Assembly (NCBI RefSeq): GCF_022808935.1
Contig: NZ_JAKZFR010000002.1
Span: 1 to 64,000 of the forward strand
Origin: Geothrix sp. SG200
GTDB lineage: Bacteria > Acidobacteriota > Holophagae > Holophagales > Holophagaceae
Length of the DNA: 64,000 nucleotides
Direction: 5' to 3'
Part shown: positions 21,986 to 54,574 of the stretch, in pieces
Position numbering within the stretch: position 1 is the first letter of the stretch
Layout of the letters: every line of letters begins with the position of its first letter
Notes under the pieces: generated by a model
Database searches by the model: none
The model's input: the letters and a program-made list of their open reading frames with translations, nothing else
Told to the model about the DNA's origin: nothing
Program-made: the position numbers and the translations under genes

Positions 21986-23017
21986 CTACTTCACGCCCCA
22001 GTCCAGGATCACCTTCCCGCTCTGGCCGCTCCGCATGGCGTCGAAGCCCTTCTGGAAGTCGTCGATGCTGAAGCGGTGCGTGATGACGGGGGTGATGTCC
22101 AGGCCGCTCTGCACCATGGCGGCCATCTTGTACCAGGTCTCGAACATCTCGCGGCCGTAGATCCCCTTCAGAATCAGCCCCTTGAAGATCACCTGGCTCC
22201 AGTCGATGGCGCAGTCGCCGGGGAGGATGCCCAGGAGGGCCGCCCGGCCGCCGTGATGCATGGCTTCCAGCAGGGACTCGAAGGCGTTGCGATTGCCGCT
22301 CATCTCCAGGCCCACATCGAAGCCTTCGGTCATGCCCAGATCCTTCATGACCTCGGGCAGGCCCTTCTTCATGGGGTTCACGGCCACGGTGGCGCCCATC
22401 TTCCGGGCCAGGTCGAGGCGGTACTCGTTCACGTCGGTGATGACCACGTGCCGGGCGCCCACGTGCTTCGCGATGGCCACGGCCATGATGCCGATGGGGC
22501 CCGCGCCGGTGATCAGCACGTCCTCGCCCACCATGTCGAAGCTGAGGGCCGTATGCGTGGCGTTGCCGTAGGGATCGAAGATGGAGGCCACCTCGTCCGG
22601 CACGTTGTCCGGCACCTTGAACACGTTGAAAGCGGGGATGGAGAGGTACTCGGCGAAGGAGCCCGTGCGGTTCACACCCACACCCACGGTGTTCCTGCAC
22701 AGGTGGCGCTTGCCGGCGCGGCAGTTCCGGCAGTGCCCGCAGGTGATGTGGCCCTCGCCGCTCACGCGGTCGCCGGGTTTGTAGCCCTCGACCTCGGCGC
22801 CCACCTTCTCGATGACGCCGTAGTACTCGTGGCCCACGACCATGGGCACAGGGATGGTCTTCTGGGCCCAGTCGTCCCAGTTGTAGATGTGCACGTCGGT
22901 GCCGCAAATGGCGCTCTTGTGGACCCTGATGAGCACGTCGTTGGGGCCCATCTCCGGCATGGGCACCTCGCCCATCCAGATGCCTTCCTCCCGCTTGGTC
23001 TTCAACAGGGCTTTCAT
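21986..23017 (-). CDS. tdh: L-threonine 3-dehydrogenase
   Basis: 343 aa, the standard length. Catalytic zinc ligands lie in SAICGTDVH and GHEYYG; the structural zinc loop is [26 protein letters not shown] is the NAD-binding strand. The enzyme oxidises threonine to 2-amino-3-ketobutyrate, which Kbl (25.7 kb) cleaves to glycine and acetyl-CoA. The last 82 bases are duplicated just downstream. It is divergent from the asnB leader. Confidence 0.97.
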
Positions 23018-23079
23018 GGCGCCTCCAACCGCACCATTTCACCATCAAGAGCAACACGGACCAACTTCCGCATCCGCCC

Positions 23080-23109
23080 TTGACGATTCGTGAAACCAGC
23101 CGCTAAGGT
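23080..23109 (+). promoter_or_regulatory. Candidate promoter for asnB leader
   Basis: TTGACG (23080-23085), 18-base spacer, TAAGGT (23104-23109). Transcription would start near 23,116, very close to the leader ATG, which makes this assignment tentative. Confidence 0.35.
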
Positions 23110-23124
23110 GCTTGCAGGCGGCCC

Positions 23125-23214
23125 ATGACCTTCCCCTCTCTGCGGACCAACCGCAACTTCAATAATCCGCTCCCTCGCGCGAATCGCGCGTGGGCCGGAG
23201 AGGGTCTCACCTAG
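23125..23214 (+). CDS. Asparagine-rich leader peptide of asnB attenuator
   Basis: A 29-codon open frame (ATG to TAG) ending 75 bases before asnB. Residues 9-14 read NRNFNN and residue 20 is also Asn: five Asn in 29, with three AAT codons, which look unusual for so GC-rich a sequence. It is placed like the leader peptides of trp, his or thr attenuators, just before an intrinsic terminator. AGG lies six bases before the ATG. Translation would sense charged tRNA-Asn and so regulate asparagine synthetase. Seen: codons and hairpins. Inferred: translation and attenuation. It is too short to be called by usual gene finders. Confidence 0.75.
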   Translation: MTFPSLRTNRNFNNPLPRANRAWAGEGLT

Positions 23215-23271
23215 ACACCTGAATTCCCGGACCACCCCCGATTCGCGACAGCGGATCGGGGGTTTTTCTTT
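23134..23271 (+). promoter_or_regulatory. Transcription attenuator of asnB (protector, antiterminator, terminator)
   Basis: Protector stem: CCCTCTC (23134-23140) with GAGAGGG (23198-23204), enclosing a CGCGCG/CGCGCG hairpin (23176-23190). Antiterminator: CGCGAATCG (23178-23186) is perfectly complementary to CGATTCGCG (23239-23247), which is the left side of the terminator stem. Terminator: 23235-23262 then TTTTTCTTT. Stalling at the Asn codons (23149-23166) would open the upstream pairings and free 23178-23186 to block the terminator. Confidence 0.7.
23235..23271 (+). terminator. Intrinsic terminator in asnB 5' leader
   Basis: Twelve-base stem with one G-T pair (CCCCCGATTCGC with GCGGATCGGGGG), loop GACA, then TTTTTCTTT. 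It precedes the asnB start by about 20 bases, so it would stop transcripts before asnB unless prevented. Confidence 0.9.
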
Positions 23272-23289
23272 ATCCCCAACGGAGCTCCC

Positions 23290-25029
23290 ATGTGCGGCAT
23301 CCTCACCATCCTCGACATCGATCCCTCGCGCTCGAACGCGGCGGAGCTCCGGCGCCAGGCCCTGGCCATGGCCCGCAAGATCCGCCACCGGGGCCCGGAC
23401 TGGAGCGGCATCTACAGCGACGGCCGGGCCATCCTCGTCCACGAGCGCCTCTCCATCGTGGACGTGGAGCACGGCGCCCAACCCCTCGTCGACACCCTCC
23501 AGGGCACCGTGCTGGCCGTGAACGGCGAGATCTACAACCACAAGGACCTGAGGCGAGGCCTGCGGGAGGCCCACGACTTCCAGACCCTTTCGGACTGCGA
23601 GGTGATCCTCTACCTGTACGACGAGCTGTCGCCCAGGGACTTCCTCAACCGCATGAACGGGATCTTCGCCTTCGTGCTCTACGATCCCAAGCGGGAGACC
23701 TACCTCATCGCCCGGGATCCCATCGGGGTCATCCCTCTCTACCTGGGCTGGGACCGGGAGGAGCGGCTCTACGTGGCCTCGGAGATGAAGGCCCTCGTGG
23801 GCCACTGCGAGCGGATCCGCGAGGTTCCCCCGGGCCACTACTACCTGGCCCATGAGGCGGACAAGGGCTTCCAGCGCTACTACGAGCCCGACTGGGCCCA
23901 GCCCGGCTATGTCCCCCAGGAGCCCTACGAGCCGGCGAAACTCCGCGGGGCCCTGGAGGCCGCGGTGCGGCGGCAGCTCATGTGCGACGTGCCCTACGGC
24001 GTGCTGATCTCCGGGGGCGTGGATTCCTCGCTGGTGGCGGCCATCGCCGCCCAGTACCGGGACGGCCGCGTGGAGGAGGGGGGCGCCACGCCCGCCTGGT
24101 GGCCCCGGATCCACAGCTTCGCCGTGGGCCTGAAGGGCGCGCCGGACCTGGCTCCCGCCCGCCTGGTGGCGGACCACATCGGCGCCATCCACCACGAGAT
24201 CCACTTCACGGTCCAGGAGGGGCTGGATGCCCTCTCGGACGTCATCCACCACCTGGAGACCTTCGACATCACCACGATCCGGGCCTCGACGCCCATGTAC
24301 CTCATGATGCGAAAGATCCGGGCCATGGGCATCAAGATGGTGCTGTCGGGCGAAGGTGCCGACGAGATCTTCGGCGGCTACCTCTACTTCCACAAGGCGC
24401 CGGACGGTCCGGAGCTGCATGCCGAGACCGTCCGCAAGCTCCAGAAGCTGCACCTCTACGACTGCGCCCGGGCCAACAAGTCCAGCGCGGCCTGGGGCGT
24501 GGAGGCCCGCGTGCCCTTCCTCGACCGGGAGTTCCTGGATGTGGCCATGCGGCTGGATCCCGCCGTGAAGCTCCCCCGGAACGCTCCGCGGCCCAGGCCC
24601 ATCGAGAAGTACCCGCTGCGCCAGGCCTTCGACGGCCTCATCCCGGACGAGGTGCTCTGGCGGCAGAAGGAGCAGTTCTCGGATGGCGTGGGCTACGGGT
24701 GGATCGACAGCCTCAAGGCCACGGCGGAGCGCGAGATCAGCGACGCCATGATGCGCGGGGCGGCGGAGCGCTTCCCGGTCAAGACTCCGGAGACCAAGGA
24801 GGCCTACTTCTACCGCCAGATCTTCGAGCACCACTTCCCCAGCGCCACGGCCGTGAACTGCGTGCCCTTCGAGCGCAGCGTGGCCTGCAGCACGGAAACC
24901 GCCCTGCGGTGGGATGCATCATTCGCCAACCAGGCTGACCCCTCCGGGAGGGCCGTGACCGATGTCCACCTTCAGGGCCATGGCTCCGCGCTATCATCAC
25001 CGGGCCAGCCGAACCCGGAAGCCCATTGA
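23290..25029 (+). CDS. asnB: Asparagine synthase (glutamine-hydrolysing)
   Basis: 579 aa. Cys2 in MCGIL is the glutaminase nucleophile; RHRGPD, ERLSIVD and NGEIYNH complete the class II amidotransferase domain (residues 1 to about 190). The synthetase half has SGGVDSSLVAA near residue 240 and LSGEGADEIFGGY. It makes asparagine from aspartate, glutamine and ATP. GGAG lies 6 bases upstream of the ATG. A leader peptide and terminator in front suggest control by asparagine supply. The TGA overlaps the ATG of the PilZ gene (TGATG). The C-terminus is about 25 residues longer than E. coli AsnB. Confidence 0.96.
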   Translation: MCGILTILDIDPSRSNAAELRRQALAMARKIRHRGPDWSGIYSDGRAILVHERLSIVDVEHGAQPLVDTLQGTVLAVNGEIYNHKDLRRGLREAHDFQTLSDCEVILYLYDELSPRDFLNRMNGIFAFVLYDPKRETYLIARDPIGVIPLYLGWDREERLYVASEMKALVGHCERIREVPPGHYYLAHEADKGFQRYYEPDWAQPGYVPQEPYEPAKLRGALEAAVRRQLMCDVPYGVLISGGVDSSLVAAIAAQYRDGRVEEGGATPAWWPRIHSFAVGLKGAPDLAPARLVADHIGAIHHEIHFTVQEGLDALSDVIHHLETFDITTIRASTPMYLMMRKIRAMGIKMVLSGEGADEIFGGYLYFHKAPDGPELHAETVRKLQKLHLYDCARANKSSAAWGVEARVPFLDREFLDVAMRLDPAVKLPRNAPRPRPIEKYPLRQAFDGLIPDEVLWRQKEQFSDGVGYGWIDSLKATAEREISDAMMRGAAERFPVKTPETKEAYFYRQIFEHHFPSATAVNCVPFERSVACSTETALRWDASFANQADPSGRAVTDVHLQGHGSALSSPGQPNPEAH

Positions 25030-25400
25030 TGAGCACGACTCCCGACCAGCGACAATACCCCCGCGTTCCCATCGCCTATCGCGTGAAGGTGGTGACCCCC
25101 GAACGCATCATCGCGTTTCCGTCCGCCATCAACATCAGCATGGGCGGCATCCTGATCGGCGGCCCGGATCGGCTGCCCGTGGGCACAGCCTGCGGCGTGG
25201 CCATTCTGCTCGAGGAGGCGGAGGCCGGCAGGCGGGTGGTGACCCGGGGAACCGTCGTCCGCTCCGATCCCAATGGGATGGCCATCCAGTTCTCGCGGGA
25301 GCTCGAGCCGAGTGGCGTCGACGCGCTGAGGGCCCTGATCCGGTCCGTCTCCCCCGAGGCCGACCAGGCCTTCGAAGCCCGGAACCATCCCCAGGGATAG
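25029..25400 (+). CDS. PilZ-domain protein
   Basis: 123 aa. QRQYPRVPI supplies the RxxxR motif and NISMGGI the (D/N)xSxxG motif of c-di-GMP-binding PilZ domains, so binding is likely. No other domain is present. The ATG overlaps the asnB stop, which predicts translational coupling and therefore shared control by the asnB attenuator, although the functional link is unclear. Confidence 0.9.
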   Translation: MSTTPDQRQYPRVPIAYRVKVVTPERIIAFPSAINISMGGILIGGPDRLPVGTACGVAILLEEAEAGRRVVTRGTVVRSDPNGMAIQFSRELEPSGVDALRALIRSVSPEADQAFEARNHPQG

Positions 25401-54445: not shown

Positions 54446-54491
54446 GGCAAGCCCGGCCCTTTTGCGCAGGCGCAAAAGGGCCGGGCTTGCC
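54446..54491. repeat. 22-bp perfect inverted repeat overlapping SRP RNA 3' end
   Basis: Arms 54446-54467 and 54470-54491 are perfect over 22 bases with a 2-base loop; central part TTTTGCGC/GCGCAAAA. Right arm includes the 3' end of the SRP RNA gene. On the minus strand the hairpin CCTTTTGCGC/GCGCAAAAGG follows the RNA and may process or terminate it. Confidence 0.9.
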
Positions 54492-54574
54492 ACGGCACTC
54501 GGGGGAACGACTTAGGGCTGCTTCTTCCGACCTGACCCGGTTCATCGCACCCCGATGCATGGGGCCCGGCTTGG
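54480..54574 (-). ncRNA. ffs: Bacterial small signal recognition particle RNA
   Basis: On the minus strand the core GATGAACCGGGTCAGGTCGG is directly followed by AAGAAGCAGCCCTAAG, which is the conserved apical region bound by Ffh (GGAA tetraloop, AGCAGC asymmetric loop). The ends GCCGGGC (5') and GCCCGGC (3') pair as the terminal stem, giving about 95 nt. SRP RNA with Ffh targets membrane proteins. Exact ends are inferred from the stem. The 3' end overlaps an inverted repeat. Confidence 0.9.

Follow-up and report, generated by a model that had tools for sequence, protein, structure and literature searches.

A predicted asparagine-sensing attenuator upstream of asnB in Geothrix sp. SG200, and homologous leaders with exchanged sensor codons in Holophagaceae

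We analyzed a window of 64,000 nucleotides from Geothrix sp. SG200 (genome size 3.36 Mb), in which asnB lies on the forward strand at positions 23290–25029. Its product is a full-length asparagine synthase B of the glutamine-hydrolysing type (Pfam PF00733 and PF13537; NCBIfam NF006949, 819 bits). A PilZ-domain gene follows on the same strand at 25029–25400 (PF07238, E = 5.7e-11), and the overlap of the two genes, described in an earlier note on this DNA, was confirmed as one base at the asnB stop codon (TGATG, 25027–25031). The gene upstream of the asnB leader belongs to the zinc-type alcohol dehydrogenase family and is oriented away, so a terminator on the forward strand cannot serve it and lies within the asnB transcription unit. 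Elsewhere in the window, a bacterial small SRP RNA (RF00169, 65.6 bits) was found at 54476–54571 on the reverse strand.

All leader features of asnB are on the forward strand. A probable promoter was read from the sequence at 23080–23109 (TTGACG at 23080–23085, an 18-nt spacer and TAAGGT at 23104–23109); it did not reach the cut-off used in the consensus scan and is only inferred. Relatives keep a TTGAC box and a TAAGGT-, TATGAT- or TATCAT-like box upstream of the leader. A possible ribosome-binding site, AGGCGG, was inferred by the same kind of reading at 23116–23121, a position where AGG is common in relatives. Translation of 23125–23214 gave a leader ORF of 29 codons, MTFPSLRTNRNFNNPLPRANRAWAGEGLT followed by a stop, with Asn at codons 9, 11, 13, 14 and 20 as the earlier note had it. 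An Asn-rich ORF near the transcript start (the start itself being only inferred) is what would be expected of an attenuator. Asn accounts for 1.99% of codons in the long genes of the window, and only 3 of the 332 ORFs of 15–60 amino acids in the window were comparably rich in it; at a frequency of 2.5%, the probability of at least five Asn in 28 residues is 0.0006.

A terminator scan recovered the terminator previously claimed to precede asnB, as a stem at 23234–23263 followed by the U-rich tail TTTTCTTT (whole feature 23234–23272). This was the sole terminator-like site in 22900–23400 (shuffled sequences averaged 0.3), and it sits between the leader ORF and asnB, the first gene, as an attenuator requires. 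The region 23100–23300 folded with z = -3.2 (1/200 shuffles folded as well).

Three pairings compete within this region: a local hairpin (1:2), CGCGCG-AAT-CGCGCG, at 23176–23190; an antiterminator (2:3) between 23178–23198 and 23227–23247; and the terminator hairpin (3:4) at 23234–23263. The antiterminator, supported by folding, shuffles and covariation, has nine, four and four pairs. Region 2 supplies CGCGAATCG (23178–23186), GTGG (23190–23193) and CCGG (23195–23198), and region 3, which can partner either region 2 or the right terminator arm, supplies CCGG (23227–23230), CCAC (23232–23235) and CGATTCGCG (23239–23247). The nine-nucleotide complementarity described in the earlier note is that of CGCGAATCG with CGATTCGCG, and it is perfect. 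The note had also proposed an enclosing protector stem, CCCTCTC/GAGAGGG, which fits Geothrix sp. SG200 but is only moderately conserved. A better conserved register of this long-range helix (23127–23207) pairs GACCTTCCCC at 23127–23136 with GGAGAGGGTC at 23198–23207; it forms 9 of 10 pairs here and usually 7–10 of 10 in relatives, failing in several.

Pairing was compared over 55 distinct scaffolds, comprising asnB, aroF and asnA-type copies (the latter two are described below). The antiterminator varies at its central pair, which was A-U, G-U or G-C in all 55 and never mismatched. Each position of the 1:2 hairpin was paired in 50–55 of the 55, with a two-sided exchange from G-C to A-U in four. 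As the sequences are related, these counts are not independent events. The asnB leaders taken alone are too conserved to be informative here: relative to the commonest pair none had changed on both sides, and covariation was not above that of shuffles; adding the aroF and asnA copies gave some.

To place the leader in its family, asnB was located across 120 relatives and 47 upstream regions, all from the same family, were read. An Asn-rich leader with a terminator was present in 44 of them, and the U-tract was kept. In 40 the scaffold and the Asn-rich frame were homologous to those of Geothrix sp. SG200, and the remaining four, all from sister genus g5, had a shorter Asn-containing leader of different scaffold sequence. 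The proposal of the earlier note was to fall if homologous regions conserved neither the frame nor the terminator, and it has survived that comparison. The element was missing at asnB of three genomes (G040, G054 and G062). In G040 (L035), a similar promoter is followed at once by asnB, without an intervening leader or terminator, which represents a natural loss of the attenuator. Around 75 more distant asnB genes (from Aeromonas, Prevotella, flavobacteria and others) had no Asn cluster and terminator of the Geothrix kind. A contig labelled Gemmatimonadetes (L156, JACPFW010000012.1) encodes an 83% identical AsnB behind the same attenuator (MTSATLRQSRNNNGNPRANRAWDGAGV); either a mislabelled bin or transfer would explain this.

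Alignment on the PRA[ND]RAW anchor allowed 35 distinct leaders to be compared. The last sensor codon, six before the N/D codon, encoded Asn in 35/35 (AAT in 31, AAC in 4), two further positions did so in 31/35 and 28/35, and the positions beside them varied between Thr, Pro, Ser, Phe and Leu. AAT makes up 12% of Asn codons in the long genes, and its dominance at the key codon despite this usage agrees with the bias in regulatory-codon choice treated elsewhere (PMC1183508). Codon 20 was Asp in 23 of the 35 leaders and sits inside the antiterminator strand, suggesting that it is part of the RNA pairing and probably not a sensor. Of the five Asn codons, those retained as sensor codons are codons 9 (AAC, 23149), 11 (AAC, 23155), 13 (AAT, 23161) and 14 (AAT, 23164), spanning 23149–23166.

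The effect of ribosome position was modelled by masking some 28 nt around each codon and folding a transcript cut short immediately upstream of the right arm of the terminator. With the leading edge set at P+13, the antiterminator probability, as a mean of 40 leaders, was 1.00 for a ribosome on the last Asn codon or on the codon after it; it fell to 0.58 one codon later and to 0.04 at the following codon, then stayed at 0.00 until far beyond the sensor. Leading edges of P+11 and P+15 moved the switch point by about one codon. The computed switch point accordingly falls just after the last Asn codon. When the segment after the last sensor codon was shuffled, 0/60 sequences reached the drop observed for the Geothrix sp. 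SG200 asnB leader, and across all leader classes 12 of 15 test leaders had no more than 3/60 (exceptions L043, L132 and L136). As far as computation can tell, the antiterminator and the terminator exclude each other, and a ribosome waiting on the sensor codons leaves the antiterminator free to form.

Full-length equilibrium folding was uninformative for scaffold-type leaders, as the terminator won at every ribosome position, and it was replaced by the truncated-transcript scan; the mechanism therefore needs the antiterminator to form while the right arm of the terminator has yet to be transcribed. In the sister genus, the leaders of G066 and G059 lost the terminator around the Asn codons even at full-length equilibrium, and those of G050 and G071 only in the truncated-transcript scan, so that the same switching behavior was computed from a different scaffold sequence. 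A ribosome at the leader stop codon gave an intermediate antiterminator value (0.55). The 1:2 hairpin at 23176–23190 is kept, yet truncated RNA without any ribosome often favored the antiterminator (mean 0.75), so that shut-off of an untranslated leader is at best tentative.

These data make it very probable, in our judgement, that the leader is a ribosome-mediated transcription attenuator, responding to how much charged Asn-tRNA is available and acting on asnB and probably on the PilZ gene that overlaps it. Co-regulation of the latter, as the earlier note suggested, is plausible from the overlap and remains an inference. RNA polymerase would start just upstream of the leader ATG, with a ribosome trailing behind. 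With Asn-tRNA plentiful, the ribosome would pass the Asn codons and cover the antiterminator strand (23178–23198) while the terminator is made, so that the hairpin at 23234–23263 could form and transcription would end ahead of asnB. With Asn-tRNA scarce, it would stall at codons 9–14 and leave that strand free to pair with 23227–23247, occupying the left terminator arm and permitting read-through into asnB. The gene downstream makes the amino acid that is putatively sensed, and the genome encodes AsnRS, so that the charging of Asn-tRNA can reflect free asparagine.

The trp/his-type reading of the earlier note is therefore supported by conservation, antiterminator covariation, the switch-point scan, the presence of AsnRS and the match of codons to pathways reported below. 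Judged from sequence and modelling, every computable defining feature of such attenuators is present, apart from shut-off without translation. What the analysis shows is the layout of the element, how well it is conserved, where the modelled switch falls and that homologous leaders carry codons matching the pathway downstream; that the leader ORF is translated, that the ribosome stalls, that transcription ends early in vivo and that asparagine elicits a response are inferred. The absence of expression data, a promoter and ribosome-binding site that are themselves only inferred, the folding results for full-length and ribosome-free RNA given above, and the three genomes lacking the element count against the proposal.

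A DNA search of the same genome revealed a second copy of the scaffold at C1:187123-187227 (76% identical, E = 6e-10; leader L002, G000:C1:187129-187227, minus strand). Its frame, MTPRFHRYYWSPRADRAWHGEGPA followed by a stop, lies ahead of a DAHP synthase gene (aroF; family assigned through the near-identical relative L103) and has the aromatic codons F/Y/Y/W (FHRYYW) where the asnB leader has Asn. A covariance model of the scaffold, run on 120 genomes, matched 51, all Holophagaceae. Leaders with F/Y/W codons preceded aroF in 16 relatives, and a scaffold tree grouped all 17 aroF copies in a single clade with support 1.0, separate from the Asn types, indicating that the aroF and asnB scaffolds are long-separated sister copies. 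In three genomes (L109, L118 and L126) NNRNN leaders preceded a divergent gene whose product matches archaeal asparagine synthetase A (PDB 3p8t, E = 2e-7). This protein had no Pfam match and matched the NCBIfam asparagine synthetase A models only below their cut-offs, so its name is likely and not certain. G055 and G063 carry this gene without a good asnB match. That an Asn leader is found at an unrelated asparagine-synthetase-like gene in genomes lacking asnB suggests that the switch is bound to the pathway and not to the gene.

More diverged leaders carried other codons. Phe-rich leaders of the SFSFFSF type preceded pheA (L123, L125, L129, L132 and L136), a Phe/Tyr-rich leader (SFYYFGF) preceded a class II DAHP synthase gene (L130), and Pro-rich leaders with terminators preceded proB and proC (L134, L135, L137-L139; L124, L127, L128, L131), with TLNPPPSQP in the proB leader and TPRPSLPPPGAP in the proC leader. 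Geothrix sp. SG200 itself has weak matches at pheA (L142, G000:C5:104827-104919) and proB (L141, G000:C1:524534-524631, minus strand). We are less sure that the pheA, proB, proC and class II leaders share descent with the asnB scaffold, as they are more diverged (E of about 1e-6 to 0.04). Leader specificity appears to follow the codons, other codons preceding genes for the matching amino acids; the classes in this residue comparison were assigned after the downstream genes had been read.

In one genome, G066, an ammonium transporter is preceded by a QQQQ-containing leader of a related scaffold (L122/L280, G066:C1:4418543-4418641). No Gln leader was present at the ammonium transporters of nine other genomes, and a general Gln class is not claimed. 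A match at carA (L133) lacked a leader peptide. A further scaffold (L117, G058:C114:3867-3955, minus strand) carries the leader MSLVHPQIKRNTNLPRVDRAWAG before a protein with a GDTATGKS nucleotide-binding motif, of unknown family and without a Pfam or NCBIfam match. On balance we favor, with some reserve, a Holophagaceae attenuator family that was duplicated and re-targeted by exchange of sensor codons. The asnB/asnA-like (Asn) and aroF (Phe/Tyr/Trp) leaders would share one scaffold, and diverged members would respond to Phe (pheA), Pro (proB and proC) and possibly Gln (the ammonium transporter of one genome).

The scaffold is conserved in sequence beyond the demands of pairing, for example in GTGGGCCGG and its surroundings. 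This would suit a terminated leader RNA, of about 150 nt, or a leader peptide that acts also, or mainly, in trans, and the trp leader peptide of Sinorhizobium has been reported to do so (PMC7298713). The cis layout and the codon-pathway match are explained without any trans role, and we regard one as improbable. The same conservation, together with the strong structure, could point to direct sensing by the RNA, as a T-box, a riboswitch or the target of an RNA-binding protein, with the Asn-rich frame incidental. We give this still less credence, as the sensor codons switch with the downstream pathway while the scaffold is unchanged. A T-box or known riboswitch was also rejected, since no Rfam family, T-boxes and riboswitches being in the library, matched above threshold in the window or in 23050–23320; the best sub-threshold match was NsiR1 (24.7 bits against 39), covering the terminator only. 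That three genomes do without the element might suit a plain partial terminator which constantly lowers asnB expression behind a leader frame of no regulatory role, but this is scarcely tenable given Asn in 35/35 leaders at one position with synonymous exchange, the pathway-matched codons of homologous leaders, and a switch point whose link to the sensor codons shuffles do not reproduce.

The attenuator that we propose resembles those of the trp/his type in its short leader ORF with codons of its own pathway, its mutually exclusive antiterminator and terminator, and a downstream gene of the same pathway. It differs in that asparagine would be sensed, in its Acidobacteriota host, and in a homologous scaffold shared by leaders of different specificity in one genome. 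T-box riboswitches of Firmicutes likewise report the charging of one tRNA, and a codon change in their common scaffold can shift specificity. In the asnB leader, by contrast, the codons would be read by the ribosome; if true, the re-targeted Holophagaceae family would be a ribosome-read counterpart of T-box specifier-codon exchange. The asnB and aroF copies constitute a natural codon-swap experiment, with one scaffold and two specificities in one genome.

Attenuators outside enteric bacteria have similarly been inferred by computation for Trp, ilv, leu and cys leader peptides of Actinobacteria (PMC1262725) and for uORF motifs of cysS and aroF (PMC8632094). One of these also precedes aroF, but they belong to other phyla and no asparagine, proline or asnB case appears in the text of either paper. 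In line with the earlier note, the open literature searched (subscription papers being mostly outside its scope) described no leader-peptide attenuator for asparagine or asnB. If the proposal is confirmed, leader-peptide attenuation would extend to asparagine, and through the related leaders to proline, and a mechanism would be supplied for attenuators of Acidobacteriota, of which almost none of those predicted in Acidobacteria had an associated function (PMC2965389). Asparagine supply might also be linked, by way of the PilZ gene that overlaps asnB, to cyclic-di-GMP-type signalling, although this is an inference.

Other loci served as controls. No Leu leader was found at leuA in eight genomes (a negative control), and no Asn leader at asnS in the six genomes read. 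At trpE, a conserved Trp leader of the AWWWR type with a terminator was present in 13/13 Geothrix-type genomes (L234-L246). This leader shares its genus and its leader-and-terminator layout with that of asnB but has an unrelated scaffold sequence, suggesting that leader-peptide attenuation is a habit of the genus.
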